From the IMG/VR virus record IMGVR_UViG_3300048587_000027, positions 1-24,534 of that record: a DNA stretch of 24,534 nucleotides; one strand, 5' to 3'. Shown here in pieces: positions 2,042 through 24,534 of the stretch. The notes under the pieces were generated by a model. The model was given only the letters and a program-made list of their open reading frames with translations. It was not told the DNA's origin and did no database searches. How positions within the stretch are numbered: position 1 is the stretch's first letter; each line of letters begins with the position of its first letter. The position numbers were made by a program, and so were the translations under genes. This DNA comes from a virus.

Positions 2042-3493
2042 CTATGCCGTTTCCCGCGAAATCGCCCACGCCGAATCGCTCACTCCGAACACAGGCTCCG
2101 TGAACGTGATGACCGCCCGGCCCGGGGCCTTGAACGTCAGCGTGAAGTCGGCGAACCCATCGGCACCGGCGAGCGCGGCCGGACTCACCGACACGATCGA
2201 CGGAGCGTCCGACACCGCCAGCACTTCGATGCCCGTGGGATCGCCGCCCGTGACGACCTGCACGGCCGCCGTGCGCGTGACAACCGGCGAGTCGCCGTAG
2301 CGGATGCCGCTCGAGCGCACGCCGCTCACCGCAGCCGCGTCCAGAACGCTCCAGACGATCGGGTATTGCAACGAGGCCGCGGCGATCGTGTCCCAGGTGA
2401 TCGCCAGGTCGGCCTGCACAGCCGCCACGACGTTCCAGTTGGCGACGTAGTTCGTCTCGACGACCCCTGCCAGCCCGCCGATCTCGTAGCCGAAGGCGTA
2501 GTCGCGTTGGACGCTGGCCGTCGTCGTCCAGCTGATCGCCAGGTCGGCCGAGACGGCGTTCAGCACGTCCCATGCCGGCGTGAAGTCCGCCGCGGGCGCG
2601 CCGTCGAGCCCCCAACTCGTGATGAAGTCGGCCTCGACCGCGAGCGGCAGGTAGCCGCCGCCGCCGATCACGCCGGTCTCGACGACCTCCCACGAAACCG
2701 CGTAGTCGCACTCGACCGCGCCGGCGGCGTTCCACGCGATCGTGTAGCTCGATTCGACTTGACTCGTCGTGTAGGTCGGCCAGCCGTCGAGCGGGAACCA
2801 CGGCGGCGAGCTCGTCGCCACGTCGTAGATCACCCACGCCGGCGCATAGTCGGCGCTGACCGCCGACAGGTCGGTCATGTCCCAGCTGACGGCGTAATCG
2901 GCCGAGACGGGGTTCGTCGATTGGACGTCCCAGACCGGCGCGAAGTCGGACGTGATCGCAGCGATCGTGCTCCACGCCACCGGGTAGTCGATCTGCGCGG
3001 CGTTGCGCACGTCCCAGAGGGTCAGCAGGTCGCTCGAGACGCTGGTCGACACCCCCCAGGTGACGCTGAAGTCGGCGGTGAGCGAGCCGGCCGAGTTCCA
3101 CGCGAACGCGTGATCCGAGGTGACGTAACCACCCCCGTCCCACGCCACCGAGTAGTCGGCCTGCGCATACGCCTGCCCGGAGTCCCACGAGACGGCGAAG
3201 TCGGACTCGACCGCCGAGACCGCATCCCACGTCAGCGCATAGTCGCGCTCGATCGTGCCGATCACGCTCCACGACGTGGCGTAGTCAGTCGAGACCGCGC
3301 CCGCCTCGTCCCACGCGAGGGCGTAGTCCTGCTGCGCGAAGGTCAGGACGTCAGACGATACCGAGTAGTCCGACTCGACCGCGATCGCGGCGACGTTCCA
3401 CGAGACCGAGAGGTCTCGCGTGACAGAGACAGTATCGGCGACGAACCATGACGGTGCGCCGCCTGTGGTCAGCGGGTACCAGGCGGTCGCCAT
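2042..3493 (-). CDS. Tail fibre-like protein made of about 23 fourteen-residue D-Y-x-x-x-W repeats
   Basis: This 483-aa protein is dominated by tandem repeats from about residue 24 to 388. The consensus is V-x-x-D-(Y/F)-(A/S)-x-x-W-(D/N)-x-x-x-A, for example VSADYAVSWDMTDL, IERDYALTWDAVSA and VQADLAITWDTIAA. By my count 21 of 23 units keep the Trp and 20 of 23 keep the Asp. Most units are exactly 14 residues; a few carry Gly/Pro/Ser-rich insertions. The C-terminal 95 residues are different, beta-rich and Ig-like (SIVSVSPAALAG, FADFTLTFKAPGRAVITF). No signal peptide or membrane segment is present. As the last gene before lysis, directly after other tail genes, it is most likely a virion fibre or adhesin. 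The alternating pattern suggests one beta-strand per unit. I recognise the repeat style from other phage structural proteins but not a named family. Confidence 0.9.
   Translation of the reverse strand: MATAWYPLTTGGAPSWFVADTVSVTRDLSVSWNVAAIAVESDYSVSSDVLTFAQQDYALAWDEAGAVSTDYATSWSVIGTIERDYALTWDAVSAVESDFAVSWDSGQAYAQADYSVAWDGGGYVTSDHAFAWNSAGSLTADFSVTWGVSTSVSSDLLTLWDVRNAAQIDYPVAWSTIAAITSDFAPVWDVQSTNPVSADYAVSWDMTDLSAVSADYAPAWVIYDVATSSPPWFPLDGWPTYTTSQVESSYTIAWNAAGAVECDYAVSWEVVETGVIGGGGYLPLAVEADFITSWGLDGAPAADFTPAWDVLNAVSADLAISWTTTASVQRDYAFGYEIGGLAGVVETNYVANWNVVAAVQADLAITWDTIAAASLQYPIVWSVLDAAAVSGVRSSGIRYGDSPVVTRTAAVQVVTGGDPTGIEVLAVSDAPSIVSVSPAALAGADGFADFTLTFKAPGRAVITFTEPVFGVSDSAWAISRETA
2330..3424 (-). 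repeat. Array of about 23 coding repeats, 42-bp unit
   Basis: Within the 483-aa gene the DNA repeats with a basic period of 42 bp, visible on the plus strand as recurring GTAGTC/GAAGTCG (the Tyr-Asp or Phe-Asp codons) and TCCCA (the Trp codon). Units are diverged at the base level, so the conserved signal is the protein motif and not a recent DNA amplification. Longer units occur where loops are inserted, e.g. around 2650 and 2780. Confidence 0.85.
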
Positions 3494-5061: not shown

Positions 5062-6225
5062 TCAGTTCGGATTGATGAGGGAAACGCCGAACGCCGTCAC
5101 CCACCCGAGCATGTTCAGCGACGGGATGTAGAACAGCGACCTGTAGGCATCGGTCGTCGGCACGGCGCCCTTGTACTCGGGGATCGCGTCACCGCTCAGG
5201 GTGATCGTCGAGGACACCCACGTTCCGGTGAGCGGGTTGGCCGGCGGAACCACCTTGACCAGCGTGTTGCCTGCGCCGGAACTCGCCCGCCAGTACAGGT
5301 TCCCGTTACCCTCGTGCCAAACCGGAGGGTTGTAGTTGGCGTCGATCGACGCCCCGGTGCGCGAGAGCGTGTACCAGCCGGCCGCCGGATAGTCGAGGTC
5401 GAGCGCCTGCCATGACGACCCCCAGATGAACAGGATCAGCCGCTTGCCGTTGCCCGCCCAATACAGCGCCTTCGCGTATCCGCTGGCCGGGGTTGCCGTG
5501 CCGATCCCGGAGAGCGTGCCGAAGGTTCCGGTCGCCACGTCGAGGTATGGCAGGAAGGAGCGTGCGTGCTGATTGCTTCCGGCCACCGAGTAGAACCGCT
5601 TCGTGACCGGATCAAATACCGTCGTGCACTCGACGCCGTCGAACGAGAACGTGCCCGTGGCCGCCCGCGACCAGACGCCTGTCGCGCAGTCGAACTTGTG
5701 CGCCACCGACGCGCTTACGGACTCGGCGCATACGGCCGCGCGCCCCAGGTGCAGCATCGAGCCCTTGGTGTTGCCCGCATCGGCTGCGCGGATCGTGGCC
5801 ATCGCGGCGTATGGATGCGGCGGCGCCGGCACTTCGGTCAGACCGCTGCGCTCGTAGTACGGCGAGCCGTTCGTTTGCGCGAGCGTGCTCGGCGTTCCTG
5901 TCTCCGTGACGCCCGGCACCCCTCGCCAGAACCATGCGCGCGTCGTGAAGTCGAACCCGGCCGCGCCGAGGATCTCGTAGTGATCGTGGCCGCCCGAGGA
6001 CGCCACGATGAACGCGCCATCGGTCGAATAGTCGCGGTTGAAGTACCCCGACCCATACGCCTCGAACAGCGCCTTCGTGAATCGGCCCGTGTCCATGCCG
6101 TTGGGCGCCACTGCGGTGTGCGCGCCGGCCGCACCGACCAGCTTGGCCGCGCCGAGCGCCGGCAGACTTCCGCTTGACGGTGCTGCCGTCACGTTGATCC
6201 TGAGCGTTGCGGTCGCGCGCGTCAT
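5062..6225 (-). CDS. Tail protein with probable beta-propeller fold
   Basis: This 387-aa protein starts MTRATATLRINVTAAPSSG. Its ATG overlaps the stop of the 1210-aa gene (ATGA), which decides the start over an upstream ATG at 6327. From about residue 45 it shows blade-like repeats in which a small-residue strand is followed by a Trp/Tyr and a turn: TRAWFWRGVPG, CATGVWSRAATGTFSF, FDPVTKRFYSVAGSN, LDVATGTFGTLSGIG, KRLILFIWGSSWQALD, GNLYWRASSGAGN. Patterns of the kind D-x-x-T-x-x-W/F are typical of kelch or galactose-oxidase-like propellers. It sits between two lectin-like tail proteins and probably belongs to the adsorption apparatus. No catalytic residues are identified. Confidence 0.82.
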   Translation of the reverse strand: MTRATATLRINVTAAPSSGSLPALGAAKLVGAAGAHTAVAPNGMDTGRFTKALFEAYGSGYFNRDYSTDGAFIVASSGGHDHYEILGAAGFDFTTRAWFWRGVPGVTETGTPSTLAQTNGSPYYERSGLTEVPAPPHPYAAMATIRAADAGNTKGSMLHLGRAAVCAESVSASVAHKFDCATGVWSRAATGTFSFDGVECTTVFDPVTKRFYSVAGSNQHARSFLPYLDVATGTFGTLSGIGTATPASGYAKALYWAGNGKRLILFIWGSSWQALDLDYPAAGWYTLSRTGASIDANYNPPVWHEGNGNLYWRASSGAGNTLVKVVPPANPLTGTWVSSTITLSGDAIPEYKGAVPTTDAYRSLFYIPSLNMLGWVTAFGVSLINPN

Positions 6226-9200
6226 AGCGTCACCAGCGTCGGTCGGTTGGCGTTCCCTGCCGGCCACGCCGGGTGATGGCCCTTGCCGCTCTTGTCTGAT
6301 ACGTCGCTCGGCGTCGGGTTGATGCACGAGTACCAGCGATCCGGGTCGGTCGTGTCGTCTGCCGTCAGCGCGAGCTTGGCGTGGATCTCCGCGAGACTCA
6401 TCGCGCGGTCGTAGAGCATCAGGTGCCGCAGCGTGCCGCTCGGCGTCTCGCTGTTCGCGCTACCGCTCGCGGTCCACGGCGACGCGCCAAACCGGAACTT
6501 GAGCGCCGCACCGGACAGCGCGCAGTCGCCCGCATTGAACGTCTGCTCGATCACGAACGCCGGGTTGTTCTCGATGTCCGGCCAGAACCGGAACCGCACC
6601 TGCGCACCGCCGTTGATGACTTCGACTGTGCGCGCCTGCGAGTACCAGACGCCCTTGGTCACGGCCAGCGCCGACCCGCCCGGCGAGGCGATGTAGTCGC
6701 TGCCGCCGATCGGCACCAGCTCGTGGTAGTGGGTCGTGAAACCCGCGCCGTAGTTGAGCGCCTGCCCGTTGCCGTTCACGGTCCCGTCGCACGGGTAGGG
6801 CGACGACCCGATGTAGTCGCCGCCGCCCGCGAATGTGTCATCCGCCCGACAGTGCCACGCCACCGCGTAGTACCCGGTCTGCTGGACGTAGCGGGCCTTC
6901 CAGATCACGGTATGGCTGTGCGCCGGCACCATGTCGGCCCCCGTCCAGTCGAGCCCGATGTTGCCGCCCGCGACGTTGTTGCTCGGGAACAGCAGGCCGG
7001 TCTGTGGCTGGACGGAGGATCGTGGCGTGATTCCGTACTCCGGATTGTCATTGAAGTAGTTCGCCGCAACGCTCGCGTAGTTGCTCGCCCCGGTCACGCG
7101 GCCCCATCCTTGCGATGCTCCCGTCACGCCGTTGTCTACAGCAGCAGCAAGCGACGCGAGTTGCATCCCGAACCACGGCAGCGACGATGAACCGTCGGCG
7201 AGGTCCGTGTTCGACGTGTGCTCCTTGAGCGTGAGGCCAGGCGTCGCGGCCAGGCTCCCGAGTCCGTTTGCCGACTCCATCTCTGCCAGCGCAGCGCCGA
7301 AAGTCGCGTACCAGTTCTCGGGCGGCAGCCCGGTGCCGTCCGTTCCAAGCGGGAACGAGTACAGCGTGAATCGCCGCCAGTTCCAGTTGCCGGCCGCGCC
7401 ATCCCCTGCGAGCCCGGCAGCGAATTTCAGTGCGTGACCAACCACCGCAGACAGCGACGACTGCGCAGCCGACGCGATCGGCAACGCAAGGTCTTTTGCC
7501 CACGCCATGACGTGCTGCACCATCCCGTGCTGCCACCCAGCGCCCCACCATGCGCTCGATCCGCCCGGAGAGCCGTACAGCGACGTGCCCATCGACGAGT
7601 ATTCGCCCATCGTCCCAAGCGGATTGACCCATCCTGACGAGAACGTGCCGTTCACATAGGCCGACTGATAGAACGCCGCGTTGGCCTCGACCGCCGCCTT
7701 GAGAGACGCAAAAGCCGGGTGTGTGGTGGGCACTATCGCGGCAGACTGCGCGAGCGTGCGCAGCGACCAGGCTGCGCCGCGCACCGTATACGACCCGTTC
7801 CTTGTGTCGATGACCCCCGCCGACCCGGACGCATAGAGATACGGCGCGGTTTCGTAGCTCGTCTCTCCACGGCGTCCATTCACCCTCGATTGAAGGTAGT
7901 TCCACCCCGCCCAGAACAGGCTTTCCTCCAGGAACCACCAGCGTCCGGTGATGAGCCACGGCAAATATCCGTAGCTCGGCTGGTGCGTCGTCACGGCCGT
8001 GCCGTTTTCACCACCGCTGCCTGCGGGGATTGTCGGCGTGTCCTGTATCTGCAACGACGCACTCGGATAGTCCGCGAAGCGCATCGGCTCGTTCGGGGCA
8101 CCTGCCGCACCTTGCGTACTCGCCGCTTCGGCGCGAAAGTGCGTCGACCACGACCCGCCCGACAGCCCGAATGCGATCGACGCCCTAAACGCTCGTGCAT
8201 CTCCGCTCGTGGCGTACAGCGCATGAGGAAGATTGAGGATGGCCGCGGAACTGCCGGCCGTTCCCATGTTTGCGTTGATGCCCGCCAGCGTGTTTGGCGA
8301 GTACGTCTGCTGGAGCGAATTGAGCTTCGTCGTGCTCGGGTTCGTCCATCCGAAGTTCGGCACCATCTTGGTCGCGCGCAGGTACGCGACATCGTGCCGG
8401 GGCACGATCTGCGGATCGGTTCCCACCCAGTACGAGAACGTCGAGCCCGAGAGCAGCGGAATGCGCGTGTGGTGCTTGATGTCGATGGACTGGCTGAACC
8501 GCTGCACGCCGCCGATCGTGAGCACCCAGGTGCGCACGTCGTTGACCGGGTTCGCTACCGTCAGGTAGCCGTTCTCGGCCCACGGGAAGATTTCGACCGC
8601 GCCGCCCTTGTAGAGCCGCACGTCGAACCACGCGACCAGGTGACTCGATCCTGCAATCGCCCGCCGATAGAGCCAGTTCGACATGACCGGCCCGGTGCAG
8701 ACCGTGCGATGCCGCGCGGCGGTGCCGATGAGCGAATTGAGCGTGAACGAGTCGCCGCCTGCGACCAGCGTCACGGTCGGCATCGCCGCGGCCAGGTCCG
8801 TCTCGGTCAGCGCCGTGCCGCTGCGGTTGGTCGCGGACACCGAGAGGGCGATGTTCTTGAGCACGGCCGCCGAGCACGTCGCGCGCCCGGCGATGATCGC
8901 GTGCCTGAGCGATCCATCCGGCCAGTAGGTGGTCGGCACCGCCTGCCAGTCGGTCAGGTCGGAGTTGACGAACTGGCCCGCCGGCACGTCGCCCTGCTTG
9001 AAGGCGTGGCCGAAGGCAAACGGAAGGTTCGTGCCGCCGACCGCGCTCGTCACGCCGAACGTCGGCAGGATGCCCGGCGTCACCGGCGCCGCGTCGATGT
9101 TCCAGCCGATCAGCACATCCTTGGTGATCGAGGTCAGCGCGGAATCGCTCACACCGAAGTCCACGCTCCAGCCCGACGTGATCGTCGCGGTCGGCGACGA

Positions 9201-9854
9201 CGTGATGAGCCCGGTTGCGAAGTTCAGCGTCGTGCCGGCGGGCAGCGAGAACGTCGCGTGGTCGTAGGTGTAGGGCGGCACACCCCCGGTCACATGCTGC
9301 GAGAGGTCGTAGGTGCCGCCTTGCGTGAGGTCGATCTGCGCGGGCGGCGTGAACGAGAGCGGCGACGACCCGGCCGCCGCCACCGTCCACCCGAGCACGA
9401 TGTCCTTCGTGACCGGCGCGCCCACCGACCAGCTCGGCGAGTAATCGGCCTGCACCGGCACGTTGCCCTGCGGGATGAACTCCACCGTCCCGAGATACCC
9501 GCCCTGGCCGGTCTCGAAGGTCGGCAGGCTCCAGGTGAAGTCGGTTCCCGCGTGGCCGAACGAGCCTGAGCACGAGCGCGCGCCGGACTCGAAGCGCAGC
9601 GTCCAGCCCGCGGGGATCGCGCCGCCCGCACCGCTCGTCACAGCAAACGACGTCACCTCTCCGATGACGATCCGCCCGCCGGCCACCGTCGCCCACGGCG
9701 TGCCCATCGTCCCGCTGGCGCGCGCGGCGTCCGTCTCGTCGTAGACCGTGACCGAGACCGGATCGACGATCGCATCCACGACCGCCTGCCCCTTGTCGGC
9801 GGCCAGCGATTGCGCGTCGTACTCGGCGCGAGTGGCGGCGTCGAGAGTGAGCAT
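6222..9854 (-). CDS. Large multidomain tail protein; candidate tailspike with polysaccharide lyase-like architecture
   Basis: This 1210-aa protein has at least five regions. Residues 1 to 130 are a probable virion-attachment part (LTLDAATRAEYDAQSLAADKG). Residues about 133 to 162 and 226 to 258 carry D-x-x-x-x-W repeats like those of the 483-aa protein. Residues about 165 to 222 resemble a bacterial putative-Ig (He_PIG) domain (GVPPYTYDHATFSLPAGTTL, NFATGLITSSPT). Residues about 260 to 500 are beta-rich with YWPDGSLRHAIIAGR and HLVAWFDVRLYKGGAVEIFP. Residues about 620 to 870 are helical and Trp-rich (WLITGRWWFLEESLFWAGWN, VRGAAWSLRTLAQSAA, WWGAGWQHGMVQHVMAWA), as in alpha/alpha toroids. Residues about 945 to 1165 look like a LamG-type jelly roll. 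A beta domain with a W-x-DGS-x-R motif followed by a helical toroid recalls PcRGLX/YetA-like polysaccharide lyases. That assignment is inference; the CDS is certain. Confidence 0.93.
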   Translation of the reverse strand: MLTLDAATRAEYDAQSLAADKGQAVVDAIVDPVSVTVYDETDAARASGTMGTPWATVAGGRIVIGEVTSFAVTSGAGGAIPAGWTLRFESGARSCSGSFGHAGTDFTWSLPTFETGQGGYLGTVEFIPQGNVPVQADYSPSWSVGAPVTKDIVLGWTVAAAGSSPLSFTPPAQIDLTQGGTYDLSQHVTGGVPPYTYDHATFSLPAGTTLNFATGLITSSPTATITSGWSVDFGVSDSALTSITKDVLIGWNIDAAPVTPGILPTFGVTSAVGGTNLPFAFGHAFKQGDVPAGQFVNSDLTDWQAVPTTYWPDGSLRHAIIAGRATCSAAVLKNIALSVSATNRSGTALTETDLAAAMPTVTLVAGGDSFTLNSLIGTAARHRTVCTGPVMSNWLYRRAIAGSSHLVAWFDVRLYKGGAVEIFPWAENGYLTVANPVNDVRTWVLTIGGVQRFSQSIDIKHHTRIPLLSGSTFSYWVGTDPQIVPRHDVAYLRATKMVPNFGWTNPSTTKLNSLQQTYSPNTLAGINANMGTAGSSAAILNLPHALYATSGDARAFRASIAFGLSGGSWSTHFRAEAASTQGAAGAPNEPMRFADYPSASLQIQDTPTIPAGSGGENGTAVTTHQPSYGYLPWLITGRWWFLEESLFWAGWNYLQSRVNGRRGETSYETAPYLYASGSAGVIDTRNGSYTVRGAAWSLRTLAQSAAIVPTTHPAFASLKAAVEANAAFYQSAYVNGTFSSGWVNPLGTMGEYSSMGTSLYGSPGGSSAWWGAGWQHGMVQHVMAWAKDLALPIASAAQSSLSAVVGHALKFAAGLAGDGAAGNWNWRRFTLYSFPLGTDGTGLPPENWYATFGAALAEMESANGLGSLAATPGLTLKEHTSNTDLADGSSSLPWFGMQLASLAAAVDNGVTGASQGWGRVTGASNYASVAANYFNDNPEYGITPRSSVQPQTGLLFPSNNVAGGNIGLDWTGADMVPAHSHTVIWKARYVQQTGYYAVAWHCRADDTFAGGGDYIGSSPYPCDGTVNGNGQALNYGAGFTTHYHELVPIGGSDYIASPGGSALAVTKGVWYSQARTVEVINGGAQVRFRFWPDIENNPAFVIEQTFNAGDCALSGAALKFRFGASPWTASGSANSETPSGTLRHLMLYDRAMSLAEIHAKLALTADDTTDPDRWYSCINPTPSDVSDKSGKGHHPAWPAGNANRPTLVTL

Positions 9855-9963: not shown

Positions 9964-10461
9964 TTATGCCGAAGTGTCCCCTTTGACTCGGAACGTCGCG
10001 CCGTCGCCGGTGTAGGCCGCGGCGCCCGCATTCACGACGCGCTTGACCCAGATCGCCTGGTACTGCCCCGGCGGGATGTTGCCGATCGAGAGCGCGGCGC
10101 CCTCGGTGGCGGCGGCCGAGAACGACTCGCCCACCGGTGCGGTCGTCTCGTTGGCGACCGTCTCGGCGGTTCCGTTCACGCCTTCGCCCGCGAGCGCGAT
10201 CGTCACGGCGGTGTCGGCGCTAGGCGTGTTCGACTGAATCCAGATCTTCGCCGACTGCAGGGTGAGCGTCGCGTGCGTGTTCTTCACGTAGTAGCAGCGA
10301 TAGTCGGTCGTGCCGGCCGAGGCTTCCGCGCTCGACACGTTGTCGAACAGGTTCGCGGGCGCGAGCGTCGAGCTGATCGCACCGCCGAGGGAGAGGTTCG
10401 GATCGGTATTGGCGGCACCCCCGGAGAGGTACACCTTGATGTCGGCCGCAACGATGGGCAT
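9964..10461 (-). CDS. Small virion-associated structural protein (165 aa)
   Basis: This protein begins MPIVAADIKVYLSGGAANTD and is rich in Ala, Thr, Ser and Gly with a predicted all-beta pattern: YRCYYVKNTHATLTLQSAKI, then DTAVTIALAGEGVNGT, ALSIGNIPPGQYQAIWVKRV and ATFRVKGDTSA. The middle of the sequence (strands separated by N-T and P-P-G turns) resembles small beta-sandwich proteins found next to tail fibre genes in proteobacterial podophages. It starts 9 bases after the fibre stop, with an AGGAG overlapping that stop codon. It is probably an accessory fibre, collar or chaperone component. No enzyme motif is seen and the family name is not known to me. Confidence 0.85.
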   Translation of the reverse strand: MPIVAADIKVYLSGGAANTDPNLSLGGAISSTLAPANLFDNVSSAEASAGTTDYRCYYVKNTHATLTLQSAKIWIQSNTPSADTAVTIALAGEGVNGTAETVANETTAPVGESFSAAATEGAALSIGNIPPGQYQAIWVKRVVNAGAAAYTGDGATFRVKGDTSA

Positions 10462-10470
10462 GGCAAGCTC

Positions 10471-11652
10471 CTAGAGTTTCATGACGTAGGCCAGCGCGTA
10501 GAACAGGGGTCGGATATCGACAGACGCGCCACTGCCGGCCGCTTGGGTTTGACCGCTCACCGAGTGCGCGTGCGCGCCGCCGGTCGTGGTACTGATGGAG
10601 TGCGAGTGATCGCCAGCCGAAGCGGTCAGCGATGTGGTTGCGTATTCGTTTGCGGAAACGCGGGTCTCGACCTTTACGGACGTAACACCGCCGCTCGTGT
10701 TCGATCCGTTCACTGTGTGCGTGTGCGCACCGTTGCTCGAGGTCGAGCCCGAATGCGCGTGCGAGCCCTGCGAGTCGGTGGCGAGCGACACCGCGTGCTG
10801 ATGCACCGGCATCTGCGCCTGGGTGAGCGTCACGCTGTTCGCGCCGCCCACCGCGCCCGGCGCATAGCTGTTGCCCGCGCCGACGATGAACCGATCGCGC
10901 AGGTCGGGCGTGCCGCCCGTGCCATCGCATAGATGCCAGCCGCTCGGCACTGAGGCGGTCGAGCCCGACCACATGCAGATGATCCCGGCGACCAGCCCCT
11001 CACCTGCCGGCCCCGGCACGCCCTGCGGCCCCTGCGGGCCGGTGGCGCCCTGCGGACCGGCCGGACCCTGCGGACCTTCCGGCCCCGTGGCGCCGGTCGG
11101 CCCCGCCGGCCCTTGCGGCCCTTGCCCCCAGGCGATGCCCGCCGTCCAGTTGCCAGCCGGGCCGTTGCGGAAGTAGATCGCGCCAGCGTCGAGCGCCAGG
11201 AATGAGAACCCCTCCGGCTCGTTGTCGTAGGCCGAGCGGTCGGAGAGCAGGAGCGCCGTCACGTCCGGCTCGAACGAGTAGCCCTGCGGGCCTTGAGCGC
11301 CAGTGGGTCCGGCCGGACCCGTGGGACCGGTCATCCCGATCGGGCCCTGCACGCCCTGCGGACCGGTCGGCCCCACCGGACCCTGCGGACCGATCGGCCC
11401 GGGTACCGGCGTCATCTCGGCGGCAATGAGCGCCGCCGCATCGCCCGAGAGCGCGGCAGCCGTCACCACGCCGTCGCGCAGCGTGCCGTCGTCGTTCTGG
11501 ATGAGCGCGAGGTTCTCGCGGATCGCGTCGGTCGTTTCCCCGATCGCTGCGAACTCGACGTCGAGCGCCGGCAGCGATACCAGGTCACGCCCGGCGGTGC
11601 CGGCGGACTCGCTGAAATTCGTCTGCGGGGTGTACGATGGGGGCTGCGGCAT
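10471..11652 (-). CDS. Tail fibre with two collagen-like segments and a phage tail-collar domain
   Basis: In this 393-aa protein, residues 1 to 80 form an N-terminal attachment region ([20 protein letters not shown] is typical of podoviral fibre N-termini). Residues about 85 to 123 and 177 to 218 are uninterrupted Gly-X-Y repeats rich in GPQGP and GPTG, which should form collagen-like triple helices. A globular insert lies between them. From about residue 226 a phage tail-collar domain follows ([23 protein letters not shown]), with HQH, HAH, HTH, HSH and HAH pairs like the metal-binding histidines of trimeric fibre tips. The protein should form a trimeric fibre on the virion. Its ATG at 11652 has AGGG 7 bases upstream. 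The conserved dyad element at 11662-11689 lies just before it. Confidence 0.95.
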
Positions 11653-11690: not shown

Positions 11691-11903
11691 GTGGATAGCG
11701 ACCTGAAGCTTTTCCTCGTCACCTTCTTGTGGAAGGTGATCCCGGTCGCCTTCTGGGTCGTCTACATCCTGCTCTGGAACGACTGGCTATCGCCCAAGTG
11801 GCGCCGCTTCGTGGACCGCCAATGGGATCGGCTCTACGTCGCCTACTGGCGACGGCAGGGGATGGCGGTCACTGCGCCAGCACCGCGGAGAGCGCAGGAC
11901 TGA
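11691..11903 (+). CDS. Small membrane protein encoded on the opposite strand
   Basis: This is the only plus-strand gene I accept. Its 70 residues begin (M)[17 protein letters not shown], with one membrane segment at about residues 6 to 29 ([11 protein letters not shown]), then a Trp/Arg-rich cytoplasmic-like tail ([19 protein letters not shown]). Third codon positions are overwhelmingly G or C, as in real genes here, and the frame fills an otherwise empty 216-base gap. The start is a GTG at 11691, only two codons after an in-frame TAA, without an evident Shine-Dalgarno, so it may be leaderless. It diverges from the fibre gene and its 3' end overlaps the transglycosylase gene by 35 bases on the other strand. 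It may be a moron-type gene. Function unknown. Confidence 0.6.
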
Positions 11904-14358
11904 GCAGCAGCGGACCGGCGGCCGGCGCCGCCGCCCTCGACCCGGTGATCTGCGCGTAGGTGCGCATCGCGTTCGCAGCCGCTGCCGGGTCCATGATGAC
12001 GGCGGCGAGCTCCTCGGCCGCACGCCGCCGCAGCGCCTCCGACATTCCGCCCTGGACGCCGCGCGCCGCAGTCGCCGCGATGTTGCCCACCACGGGGATG
12101 CGTCGCACGATGTTCTCGATCGCGCCGGTGAGCACGGGCGAGTCGATGGCCGTGTTCGACAGGATGCGGTTCATCTCCGTGTCAGACCCGCCCTTCGCCG
12201 CGGCCAGCGCGATCGCGCGCTCGGCACGCGACAGGTCGGCGCCCACGTTGCCCAGCGTGCCGAGCTGGTCAGGCGTGAAAACGCCGGGGAGCGCCTCGCC
12301 GCGCCCGGTCAACCAGTTGTTGAACTTCGATGCGCTGTACTCGCCGCTCGAGCCCTTCGTGGCGAAGTTGTCCAGGTCCGTCACCGCCGCGCGGCGCACC
12401 ATGTCGATCGCATTCTGATTGTCCGGAAGCATCGCGTGCAACCCGGCGATGTCCGTGCCCTGCGTCGGCCCCGAGTTAAAGAACCCGCGGTAGACCTCGG
12501 CGCCCTGGCGCTGCGGCAGCTTGTCGGCGCCGCGCTTCCACATGCCGGCGGCGGGCCCGGTCTCGAAACGCGTCCCGAGCTCGCGGCGCAGCCCTTTGGC
12601 GGTCTCGAACGCCTTCGCCGACTTCGGCATGAGGTTGCCGGCAGCGATCGCCCGATCGGGCAGCCCGTCGAGGATGTCGCGGATTGCGCCGTATGCCGCC
12701 GCTGCGGTCGGGTCGGTGTTCGCCAGCCCCCACGCCTGATCCGAGGCGAGCTTGCGGAACTTCTGCAACTCGGGAAAGCCAATCGGGATGCCTTCCGAGA
12801 GGTTCTGCACGAGGCTCTTGACCGCCGCTTCGTTGGGCGTGCCGCTCGGGATCTTGCCCGGGTAGAACTGGCGCAGCACCTGGCGCACTTCGTCGCGCGG
12901 CGGCGTCAGGTACATGCCCTGCAGCTCGGGCACGTTGTAGGCGCCGCGGATGGCGTCCTTCAGCGCGGCGCGCACCGCCGTTGCCTCGCGCGTGATCGTG
13001 TCGCCCGCTGCGGTAGCCGCCTCGATCGGCGTGCCCGTCACCGGCGCCACCGACTCGACGGCCGCGCGGCGCGCAGCGTCCTGCTGCACCTCGCGTGCCG
13101 GGATCTGGGCGCTGTAGTTGCGCACCGTCTTGGCCAGGCGCGCGACCCCGGGATCTTCGGCGACCTGGTGCGCCATCGGCTGCGAGCCGGGCACGAGCGT
13201 CTGTGCGCTACCCAGGCGCTGCTCGACGGCGGCCGGGTCGACGGCGGCGCGCGTGATCCGCTCGCCCGCCCGAAACGGCGCACCGGCGCGCATCTCGCGC
13301 ACCTTGTTCACGATCCCGGCACCCGCGCCGGCCACCAGCTGCCCCGCCGCGCCACCCGCGCCACCCACCAGCGCATTCTTCACCGGCGAATCGGCGTTCG
13401 TTTGCGTACCGAGCACGACGCCTTGCCCGGCGCCGACGCCTGTGGCCGCTAGCAGCGACTTGAGCCGGTTCGCCCACCCGCCGGCCTGCCAGAGCGCGGA
13501 CGCGCCCTCTGCGCCGCGAACGAACGGCAGCGCCGACGCGCCGACGATGTTCCCGCCGATCTCGCCGGCAGTCGCCAGCGCGCTGTCGCCGTGCGCAGCC
13601 TTGAACGCGTCGTTCACCGACTTGTTGACGCCGCTCATCGTGTCGGCCGACGTGCCGAAAAAGCGCGACACCGGGTTGTCCGCGAGGCCGCCCAGGCTCG
13701 TCGAGAACTCCAGTGCCTTCGGCAGCAGGTAGCCCACCGACTGCGGCAGGCTCAACATGCCCTTGAGCAGCCCGGCTCCTGGCGCCTCCAGCGCGGTCCA
13801 CGGGTTGTCGATGATCTGCTGCACGGGCGAGCGTTCGTCGGCGGCCGTGCCGTTGATCGTCACCTTCATGGGCTCGGGCGCCGGCTCGTCCCATTTGACC
13901 TGCGCCGGGTCGATCTTCGGCGCGTCCCACTTGATGGTGTTCGGGTCGATCTTCATGGGCAGCCTCGCGGCGACCTGTTCGCCGTACTGGATGGTGTTCG
14001 GGGCGTTCGGGTTGACCGGATCACGCACCGCGACCCCCGCGCGCGCCTTCGGGATCGCCCCCTCCCCGCCGTAGTAGCCGGCCGCCGTGAGCTTCGGATC
14101 GCCGCCGGCCTGCTCGTGCAGCATCCGCAGGTAGCGCACGCCAGCGCGCGCGTTCTGCACCGGATCGGCGATGTTCCAGCCCGGGTCGGCCACGCGCTGG
14201 AAGGTGGCGGGGATCACCTGCATGCCGCCGACCGCGCCGCGGTTCGACGTTTTCGCGTTCCGCCCGGAGGATGACTCCTGCTGGTAGATCGAGCGCGCAA
14301 GGTCGGCCAGCGTGCCGGTCACGCCTTCAGCCTGCAATGCGCGCTCGAGCGGGTTCAT
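11869..14358 (-). CDS. Internal virion protein with N-terminal lytic transglycosylase domain
   Basis: Residues about 5 to 125 of this 829-aa protein form an SLT-type lysozyme-like domain: IYQQESSSG with the likely catalytic E28, GAVGGMQVIPATF, a helical middle, and AAGYYGGEGAI, the counterpart of the AYNGG motif. The rest is long and mainly helical, with a Gly/Ala-rich hydrophobic stretch at about 265 to 350 that could insert into a membrane. This layout matches podoviral ejection proteins such as T7 gp16, which locally cut peptidoglycan and help form the DNA channel through the envelope. The ATG overlaps the previous stop (ATGA). It is the last of four consecutive internal virion proteins. 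It is not the endolysin, which is encoded separately near the end of the late region. Confidence 0.9.
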   Translation of the reverse strand: MNPLERALQAEGVTGTLADLARSIYQQESSSGRNAKTSNRGAVGGMQVIPATFQRVADPGWNIADPVQNARAGVRYLRMLHEQAGGDPKLTAAGYYGGEGAIPKARAGVAVRDPVNPNAPNTIQYGEQVAARLPMKIDPNTIKWDAPKIDPAQVKWDEPAPEPMKVTINGTAADERSPVQQIIDNPWTALEAPGAGLLKGMLSLPQSVGYLLPKALEFSTSLGGLADNPVSRFFGTSADTMSGVNKSVNDAFKAAHGDSALATAGEIGGNIVGASALPFVRGAEGASALWQAGGWANRLKSLLAATGVGAGQGVVLGTQTNADSPVKNALVGGAGGAAGQLVAGAGAGIVNKVREMRAGAPFRAGERITRAAVDPAAVEQRLGSAQTLVPGSQPMAHQVAEDPGVARLAKTVRNYSAQIPAREVQQDAARRAAVESVAPVTGTPIEAATAAGDTITREATAVRAALKDAIRGAYNVPELQGMYLTPPRDEVRQVLRQFYPGKIPSGTPNEAAVKSLVQNLSEGIPIGFPELQKFRKLASDQAWGLANTDPTAAAAYGAIRDILDGLPDRAIAAGNLMPKSAKAFETAKGLRRELGTRFETGPAAGMWKRGADKLPQRQGAEVYRGFFNSGPTQGTDIAGLHAMLPDNQNAIDMVRRAAVTDLDNFATKGSSGEYSASKFNNWLTGRGEALPGVFTPDQLGTLGNVGADLSRAERAIALAAAKGGSDTEMNRILSNTAIDSPVLTGAIENIVRRIPVVGNIAATAARGVQGGMSEALRRRAAEELAAVIMDPAAAANAMRTYAQITGSRAAAPAAGPLLLSPALSAVLAQ

Positions 14359-20419: not shown

Positions 20420-21484
20420 TCAGGTGAGCGCGAGCGCCGCGTGCGCGCTGCGCATGTTGCAGGTCATCGCACCCTTCCAGGTGAGCGCCATGTACACCAC
20501 GTAGCGGTCGTGCGGGCGCGGGGGCTTGCGGCTCACCATGTCCTGGCCGGCGAGCGGGCGCAGCTTCAGGTGGCGCAAGTTCAGGATGTACCCGCGCTTG
20601 TTCCAGCTCGTGGCCGGGCTCACGATGCCGCCGAAGTCGTCGTCGAACTCCGGGCACCAGGTCAAATCCACGCCCTTGAACGCCATGCCGGTGAGGCCCG
20701 GGTCCATCTGCGTGCCACCCTTGGCCGGCGTCTGGATGAACCGCTGGATGCCGCCCGACGCGGCGACGGTGGCCGCCTCGAACGCGTCGTAGAACGCGCC
20801 GCCGACGAAGATGTGCGTGGGCCGCCCGCCGTGACGCACGCAGTTGCGCCACTCGGTCTCCATCTTCGTCAGGATGTCCGACGACGACAGGCCGGTCTCG
20901 CGGTTCGCCAGCCACCACGGGTACGTGTACGCGTCCAGCCCGCCCACCACCTCGGTGCCCGCCCCGACCGGAGCCGCGGTGATCGGCACCAGGTGATCCA
21001 GCCCCGCGATCGCGTCGGCCGAGCTCGACCCGTCGAAGTGCAGCGCCGCCGAGAACTTCTCCTCGAAGCCCAGCCGCAGCACTTCGGACTGCTCGGTGAG
21101 CAGGTTGGTGAGCTGGACCATCTCGGCGTCCGACGCCTTGGCCTGCCGATCGTCGGTCACGATGATGCCGTTCTGGCTCAGGCGATCCTCGTCGATCATC
21201 ACGCCGTCGTGCGCGCTGCGCCACGGGTACTTGACCTGCTCGATCGTGTTGCGCTCGTTGTAGGTGACGGCGCCGGCACCGCGGTACCACTGGAAGTTCG
21301 AGTCGTAGCGCGCGCGCAGCTGCTCGACGATGTACTCCTTGGCGCCGGGGAACTCCGACTTGCGCGACTGAAGCGCCTTGAGCAGCGGGCGATCGACCGA
21401 CACCTGGTCGACCGGGTTGTTCTTCATGTAGAAGTCGAGGCCGACCTTCGCGGCTTCGGCCAGTTGGTTCACGGTGAACGGCAT
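20420..21484 (-). CDS. Major capsid protein
   Basis: This 354-aa protein starts MPFTVNQLAEAAKVGLDFYM. Features seen: an N-terminal helical arm, a spine-like helical region (LTNLLTEQSEVLRLGFEEKF), a Gly-rich strand-turn region (GGRPTHIFVGGAFYDAFEAA), and a C-terminal beta region (WNKRGYILNLRHLKLRPLAG) ending in YVVYMALTWKGAMTCNMRSA. Length, position after a scaffold-like gene and before the connector genes, and the WxxAxxxN-type C-terminal strand all fit an HK97-fold coat protein of temperate podophages. The start at 21484 is chosen because AGGAG lies 6 bases upstream; the open frame extends to 21562 but without such a site. A terminator, a dyad element and a long leader precede the gene, and a strong hairpin follows it. 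Confidence 0.9.
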   Translation of the reverse strand: MPFTVNQLAEAAKVGLDFYMKNNPVDQVSVDRPLLKALQSRKSEFPGAKEYIVEQLRARYDSNFQWYRGAGAVTYNERNTIEQVKYPWRSAHDGVMIDEDRLSQNGIIVTDDRQAKASDAEMVQLTNLLTEQSEVLRLGFEEKFSAALHFDGSSSADAIAGLDHLVPITAAPVGAGTEVVGGLDAYTYPWWLANRETGLSSSDILTKMETEWRNCVRHGGRPTHIFVGGAFYDAFEAATVAASGGIQRFIQTPAKGGTQMDPGLTGMAFKGVDLTWCPEFDDDFGGIVSPATSWNKRGYILNLRHLKLRPLAGQDMVSRKPPRPHDRYVVYMALTWKGAMTCNMRSAHAALALT

Positions 21485-21490
21485 GATGGG

Positions 21491-21495
21491 CTCCT
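21491..21495 (-). promoter_or_regulatory. Ribosome binding site of the capsid gene
   Basis: AGGAG lies 6 bases before the ATG at 21484 (CACAGGAGCCCATCATG). It is one of the strongest Shine-Dalgarno matches in the window, as expected for the most abundant virion protein. It decides the start against the upstream in-frame ATG at 21562. Confidence 0.8.
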
Positions 21496-21610
21496 GTGGA
21501 TGCGAACGAGTGCGGTGTTGCCGCTCCGATTCGCGGTGGCGAGCCGCAAAACAGCCGATCACGTCGGGCGGTGCCCGGGCGACGAGCCCCGGATACAGTC
21601 AGACGCCACG

Positions 21611-23292: not shown

Positions 23293-24534
23293 CTAGGCTC
23301 CTACGGGAAGTTCAGCGGGCAAGCCCGCAGGGGGTTGAACCGCCATCTCGGGCGGCATCTGGTCGGGCATGGCGCCCGGAATCTGTGGCATCTGCGGATG
23401 AAGCGGTGGCAGCGGCGGGAAGAACTTGCCGATGTCGATGCGCTCGTCGAAGCGCTTGAGCGTCTCGCGCAGCAGCTCGATCACGCCCTCCGCCTGGTCG
23501 TTCAGCCCGGCCTGCCGGAACTGGATCACCTGCTGCATGAAGCTCATCAACTGCGGCGCGAGCTGCACCCACTGCTCGCGCTCCTGCATCCGGTTCGGCT
23601 TGCCGGTCGAGCCGGCGCGAATCTCGACCTTGACCAGATCGAAGATGTCGTCGCGCGGCAGCGTCGGCCACACGTAGCCCGGGCCGGCGATGCGCTCGAC
23701 CATCGGCTCCGCGAGTTCCTGCAGCAGAATCTGCGCCGCGTACTCGGCCATCTCGGTGAGATACCCCTCCAGCGTGTCCTGCCGGTAGCTGGTGCGGGAC
23801 TGCATGCCCTGCGCCTGGATCTCGGCTTCGGTGGCGGTCTTGGCCTTCTGGATGCTGGCGCGACTCGCATCGGACGCACCCGATGTCTGCTCGAGGTCGC
23901 GCAGGATCGGCGTCGTGTCGTAGCTCACCGGGTCGATCGGCGCCGGCGGGAACCTCACCACTTCGCCGGCCAGCGGGGCCTCGGCGCCGTTGGTGGTAAC
24001 GCCGATCATCTGCCGGCCCTCGCGATTGGCGAGGTTGCCCACGTCCTCGTCGGTGAGCGAACCGCCCTTTCGGTACACGGTCACCGGTCGGTTTTCCTTG
24101 CGCGCCTGCGCGAGCTGCGTGCGCATGCTGTTGTACTCGTCCTGCAACCCCGCCCACTGCTCGACGTCCGCCACCGGGTAGAACTGCCCGTCGACCTCGT
24201 TCCAGAAGATGGCGAAGAACGGGTAGAAGCGGCGGCCGTTGCGCTCCAGCCGGTACGGCTCGCGCGCCCACTCCTTCGCGCCGAACTCGACCGTGTAGAT
24301 CGTCTGCGCGCGCCGGTCCCAGATCTCGAAGACCATCACGAACTGCTGCCGGTCGCGCTTGGACTGGCCCTGCTTGCCGGCCAGCGCGTCGCGCTTGTCC
24401 GCGTACTTCGCGCCCACCGGCTTCTTGCCGAAGCGATCCTCGAAGTCCGAGCAAGTCATGACGATCCGGTGCGCGATCGCCCGGGCCTGCGGGTACTCGC
24501 TGAACGTGGTCAGCGACTCGTCGAGGATGAGGAT
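23293..24534 (-). CDS. Portal protein, N-terminus beyond the window
   Basis: The frame is open to the right edge of the window, so only the C-terminal 413 residues are seen. The ATG at 24459 is internal: upstream codons continue in frame (DESLTTFSEYPQARAIAHRI). Recognisable portal features are FYPFFAIFWNEVDGQFYPVA, followed by VEQWAGLQDEYNSMRTQLAQ, the stem-like helical region with ASRASIQKAKTATEAEIQAQ, and a long C-terminal helix (YLTEMAEYAAQILLQELAEP) ending in a Pro/Met-rich tail. This arrangement is usual for podoviral portals, which form the dodecameric DNA gate at one capsid vertex. It is followed two bases later by the next head gene. Confidence 0.9.
   Translation of the reverse strand: MLILDESLTTFSEYPQARAIAHRIVMTCSDFEDRFGKKPVGAKYADKRDALAGKQGQSKRDRQQFVMVFEIWDRRAQTIYTVEFGAKEWAREPYRLERNGRRFYPFFAIFWNEVDGQFYPVADVEQWAGLQDEYNSMRTQLAQARKENRPVTVYRKGGSLTDEDVGNLANREGRQMIGVTTNGAEAPLAGEVVRFPPAPIDPVSYDTTPILRDLEQTSGASDASRASIQKAKTATEAEIQAQGMQSRTSYRQDTLEGYLTEMAEYAAQILLQELAEPMVERIAGPGYVWPTLPRDDIFDLVKVEIRAGSTGKPNRMQEREQWVQLAPQLMSFMQQVIQFRQAGLNDQAEGVIELLRETLKRFDERIDIGKFFPPLPPLHPQMPQIPGAMPDQMPPEMAVQPPAGLPAELPVGA

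Follow-up and report, generated by a model that had tools for sequence, protein, structure and literature searches.

The window and its genes

The window is the whole stretch of DNA that was analysed, a virus record of 24,534 bases that is possibly a fragment. Its structural genes lie on the minus strand, and the genes that could be assigned by sequence comparison point to a podovirus-like genome. The features that matter here are as follows.

2042..3493, minus strand: repeat-string protein of 483 aa, with an ATG start and its stop codon at 2042-2044
2327..3424, minus strand: array of 23 units of 14 residues plus two longer loops (residues 24-389), from motif count, autocorrelation and register
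2045..2326, minus strand: repeat-free C-terminal part (residues 390-483), rich in beta structure in a model of low confidence
6222..9854, minus strand: 1210-aa protein bearing further units, next to the companion gene; a PcRGLX-like N-terminal domain is weakly matched, below the cut-off
9372..9455, minus strand: two more 14-residue units in the 1210-aa protein (residues 134-161), scoring 43 bits where shuffles reach at most 14
9087..9128, minus strand: probable third unit in the 1210-aa protein (residues 243-256, ITKDVLIGWNIDAA), recognized by eye
9964..10461, minus strand: companion gene, 165 aa, phrog_13135 (function unknown), predicted beta sandwich
10471-11652, minus strand: collagen-like fibre, from Pfam and PHROG searches
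11869-14358, minus strand: large protein with a transglycosylase-like start, from a PHROG search
20420-21562, minus strand: major capsid protein, 24-26% identical to those of Mx8, Mx9, Stenotrophomonas, Microcystis and Rhizobium phages
23293-24459, minus strand: portal-like protein, from a PHROG search

The repeat gene comes after the companion and the 1210-aa protein. On reading, the genes that lie below it resemble a lysis cassette. The presence of two or three units inside the 1210-aa protein means that the repeat unit moves between proteins of one genome.

A tandem 14-residue unit

The 483-aa protein is mostly one tandem 14-residue unit. Strict D[YFLH]xxxW motifs number 18, against an average of 0.27 and a maximum of 3 in 1000 shuffles, and residue-identity autocorrelation peaks at lags 14 and 28. 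These two measures are the real test of the repeat; the array's chain score of 402 bits, where shuffles reach at most 23, is descriptive because the scoring matrix was built from the window's own units. Counted by register, residues 24-389 hold 23 units, or about 76% of the length with the loops and 67% without them. A preliminary description, made from the letters of the window, had proposed about 23 copies of a D-Y-x-x-x-W repeat occupying some three quarters of the protein, and both figures hold. It had also called the Asp and the Trp near-invariant, which agrees with the window consensus, V-x-x-D-Y/F-x-x-x-W-x-V: Asp stands at unit position 4 in 20 of the 23 units and Trp at position 9 in 21 (positions are counted from 1 throughout). 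Steps from Trp to Trp are mostly 14 residues, with a few of 15 or 16, and lengthen where loops rich in Gly and Pro intervene, near residues 224-247 and 271-286. Tandem Repeats Finder reports no tandem repeats in the DNA of the array, the copies being too diverged. The last ~90 residues (390-483) are possibly Ig-like, to judge from the model.

The protein has no significant match in Pfam, NCBIfam or PDB sequences. The PHROG family phrog_6079, annotated as a tail protein, matches residues 7-204 (E 7.6e-11), in keeping with the tail context suggested earlier; its profile is repeat-rich, so that the match speaks for a repeat of the same kind and not for homology along the full length. PF16724, the T4-type gp15 sheath stabiliser domain, gives no match to the window protein. 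PF03335, a phage tail fibre repeat with a 14-position profile, is listed for the window's collagen-like fibre; among the matches of the repeat protein, taken up to E 1, it does not appear. Searches of open-licence papers found no description of this repeat, of phrog_6079, of KVP40.0353, which is the companion homologue in KVP40, or of the pairing discussed below.

Relatives and spread of the unit

An orthologue at 92% identity to the window protein (L161/L010) has an array of equal length. Another (L162), at 41% identity, keeps the register, with one unit fewer and Phe in place of Trp in several units. Pattern scans place the window unit also in L007, L008, L012/L006, L013, the L144 group and L151, among the matches listed; with the loose pattern, many of the hits fall in low-complexity DNA or out of frame. 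The arrays of the L144 group have five units, and the L144 protein, at 116 aa, has almost no other domain.

A tblastn search of phage isolates with the window protein finds nothing at E 1e-5, and only weak matches, to Vibrio gp15, below E 10. A consensus query locates the unit in frame within gp15 of the Vibrio schizo-T4 phages, the KVP40 group. In KVP40 gp15, Trp recurs at strict 14-residue steps from residue 264 to 404. The C-terminal extensions of three related Vibrio gp15 proteins hold about 12, 14 and 20 period-14 Trp; thus copy number varies within one gene, as had been suggested for relatives of the window protein. The phrog_6079 profile also matches Vibrio gp15, L185 and L197, and fails to reach several other arrays, e.g., L171, L187 and L202.

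Klebsiella Webervirus matches of the consensus query were dropped, as in the records opened they lie antisense to an annotated fibre gene. In two such tail fibre genes (L039 4001-4294 and L042 5001-5294), an antisense frame mimics a 14-residue repeat because the sense strand has a repeated coding sequence of its own, a situation that misleads translated searches. In a separate record (L040, MG592456.1), the gp15-extension DNA at 1520-1713 is annotated as CRISPR spacers and really consists of 42-bp coding repeats.

The arrays that were compared form 36 families, some of them closely related, with the consensus V-S-x-D-[LFY]-T-phi-x-[WYF]-[DN]-[VI]-[LR]-N-A. Spacing is 14 in 267 of 307 steps. 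Strong hydrophobic residues (VILMFYW) occupy positions 5, 7, 9 and 11 at frequencies of 0.71, 0.54, 0.96 and 0.89, and positions 6, 8 and 10 at 0.06, 0.20 and 0.04. With this alternation, each unit is a single amphipathic beta strand. Where Trp is typical, W makes up 61%, Y 25% and F 10%, so an aromatic residue, rather than Trp alone, is conserved. Gly exceeds 0.20 at no unit position, and Pro is nowhere among the leading residues.

Two further observations concern particular arrays. Near a contig end, L167 (12566-13036) has four near-identical units (AQQDQALTWNTLGS), which suggest that the array expanded recently. In L197, L185 and L171, a short tail rich in beta structure, such as ENRMISIPAENRTLTV, closes the array; it may serve as an anchor or represent another small repeat.

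A companion gene linked to the repeat

When the neighbours of repeat genes were read, one recurrent gene was found, homologous to window 9964-10461. This companion is an addition to the preliminary description, which missed it. Residues 1-165 match phrog_13135 at positions 1-182 of 182 (E 2.9e-29), no Pfam or NCBIfam entry was matched, and a PDB sequence search gave no relative. Among phage isolates, nearly all companion matches are in Vibrio schizo-T4 phages of the KVP40 group: 52 of the records are from Vibrio, one is an Alteromonas phage and two are uncultured. The gene lies directly after gp15 in the three Vibrio records examined, KVP40 and two others; in Alteromonas phage PT15-A5 and the two uncultured phage records, no repeat chain was found near it.

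Eighty viral loci were gathered with the companion alignment alone, and 78 were scored. A repeat chain of more than 24 bits (the shuffled maximum was 18.7 among 7968 ORFs) is present in 51 of the 78, and at 36 it is in the adjacent gene. The other 27 have no repeat above the threshold; some of them are cut short or carry degenerate units. Of the ORFs on the same strand within 300 bp of the companion, 34 of 295 have the repeat; the counts are 16 of 3322 farther away and none of 4351 on the opposite strand. The near-versus-far difference has a Fisher p of 2e-26, a value that overstates the case because companion loci are related. When the companions are clustered, the repeat accompanies 24 of 40 clusters at 70% identity and 4 of 7 at 50% (chained). 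The scoring matrix was partly trained on loci that recur in the companion set (the window orthologues, L008 and the L144 group); the independent part of the linkage consists of families such as L197, L185, L187, L171, L192 and L178. Approached from the repeat side, the companion is also in the records of L007 and L151, and there is none in the 6.5-kb fragment that is the L076 record. In the window itself, what adjoins the companion is the gene of the three-unit 1210-aa protein, not the 23-unit gene.

The array proteins beside the companion otherwise differ. They bear a SASA esterase (L185, L175), DUF4082 (L013) or the gp15 domain, and L202 has a Laminin-G-like stretch just below the cut-off. 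Their N-terminal non-repeat pieces fall mostly in separate clusters; the N-terminal clusters were used alone, as one cluster of 25 non-repeat pieces is inflated by leftover degenerate units. It is because the repeat is the element common to these otherwise differing neighbours that the companion is held to be tied to the repeat. What the sequences show, taken together, is that a 14-residue unit recurs widely and is genetically linked to the companion in phages of differing kinds, whose arrays are joined to differing non-repeat domains. Very similar arrays also follow different N-terminal parts in L233 and L234 (DUF4082 in L234, another in L233), a case in which the domain that precedes the array has been exchanged.

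Two accounts of the arrays can be weighed at this point. Short aromatic 14-residue beta repeats might have arisen several times, so that the arrays are not one family. The shortness of the unit would allow this, as would residues that differ by family, with Tyr or Phe for Trp. Convergence has to contend with the exact period of 14 that the arrays share, with the match of phrog_6079 to the window protein, Vibrio gp15, L185 and L197 alike, and with the linkage of all the arrays to one homologous companion; we consider it very improbable. Alternatively, the array could be a generic elastic spacer or stalk that shows variable binding or enzyme domains, with the companion sitting in the same fibre cassette without touching the units. 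Arrays joined to SASA esterase, Laminin-G-like and DUF4082 parts speak for such a stalk, and in 15 of the 51 repeat-bearing loci the array is 300 bp or more from the companion. Yet the companion also follows Vibrio gp15, where there is no fibre cassette and the repeat is the shared feature, and some arrays are almost without any other domain, e.g., the five-unit protein of L144. We judge the spacer quite unlikely.

Predicted structures

The AlphaFold model of the array has one strand per unit and a beta-helix-like shape, with a pLDDT of 45 and no residue at 70 or above. It resembles tailspike beta-helices (Z up to 14.5) and a curli subunit, matches that are weak evidence given that the model derives from a shallow repeat alignment. 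The beta-type unit of the preliminary description thus recurs as one predicted strand. As for its possible solenoid with a tryptophan ladder, the predicted shape is beta-helix-like at low confidence, and the aromatic character is conserved, not Trp alone.

A related account has the array forming a beta-solenoid or beta fibre with stacked aromatics, either on its own or as a homotrimer; the companion would then cap it, assist its assembly or be a virion protein located nearby. The shape of the model, its matches and the regular period of 14 all speak for it. Set against these are the low pLDDT and the shallow alignment; in addition, one hydrophobic strand per 14 residues would leave little for two-sided coil packing, and a solenoid leaves the companion linkage unexplained. 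We think self-folding rather unlikely, though the likeliest of the three rival accounts.

The companion model is a confident beta sandwich (pLDDT 93, pTM 0.89), well ordered as a monomer. A Foldseek search of the PDB with this model gives nothing below E 1e-3. VIA-align finds GH123-type hexosaminidase domains (Z up to 8.0). Many chaperone-usher pilins, FimA, FimG, FimI, PapA and CfaB among them, are also close to the top of the list, at Z 5.5-7.2 over 102-122 residues. This likeness is suggestive; a Z under 8 can reflect just a common sandwich arrangement, and the GH123-type domains score equally high.

A proposed strand array with docked companions

Our first proposal is that the 483-aa protein is a virion-associated string of about 23 short amphipathic beta strands, forming a two-component module with the companion, copies of which would dock on the strands. 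We advance it tentatively, putting its chances a little short of even. Each unit would present one edge strand, with its hydrophobic face at positions 5, 7, 9 and 11. The edge strand would dock on the companion's predicted beta sandwich, as donor strands complete the domains of chaperone-usher pilins. Companion molecules would then sit along the string like beads, as many as the units dictate. Elsewhere in the string, an esterase, a lectin-like domain or, at the neck, gp15 would anchor it to the particle or carry surface binding.

In favour of docked companions are the companion-repeat linkage, the varied attached domains, the amphipathic strand, the weak resemblance of the companion model to pilins and the variable unit number of gp15. 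Several points tell against it. The companion model is orderly as a monomer, 27 of the 78 loci are without the repeat, and the window's array gene is not adjacent. The pilin Z scores are low, with GH123-type domains reaching as high. Moreover, neighbouring structural genes of phages travel together anyway.

The second proposal is broader and, in our estimate, rather doubtful: phages of several kinds may possess a donor-type strand array with one pilin-like bead per unit, an usher-free, pilus-like assembly in which unit number sets bead number. If unit number does set bead number, appendage length or surface valency could be altered genetically in a simple way. Repeat and companion recur in the podovirus-like genome of the window, in T4-like myoviruses of Vibrio and in further phages, with different functional domains attached. 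This spread suggests a shared, undescribed way to build or decorate phage particles. KVP40 is cultured, so gp15 and KVP40.0353 are open to direct testing.

Comparison with known systems

The nearest relatives by repeat are gathered in phrog_6079, a tail protein family of 605 positions that covers just the repeats of the window protein, Vibrio gp15, L185 and L197, and for which no function or structure is given. The gp15 tail sheath stabiliser of Vibrio schizo-T4 phages is like the window in having Trp every 14 residues, there in a C-terminal extension, followed by a companion homologue. It has PF16724; the window protein, in contrast, is without a gp15 domain, and its genome appears podovirus-like.

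Chaperone-usher pilins offer the closest parallel to the proposed docking. The companion model resembles their sandwich weakly (Z 5.5-7.2), and the unit alternates as a donor strand does. They differ in that there is no sequence match and in that the strands here would be in tandem on one chain; no usher or chaperone gene was seen in the window.

Triple beta-spiral fibre shafts of the adenovirus type are likewise viral appendages made of short amphipathic beta repeats. Each of these repeats spans ~15 residues and comprises two strands and a Gly/Pro turn that is conserved, whereas the window unit has a period of 14, one strand per unit in the low-confidence model and no conserved Gly/Pro turn. 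The tailspike beta-helices and the curli subunit CsgA are what the array model (pLDDT 45) resembles at low confidence; the coils of both are longer than 14 residues.
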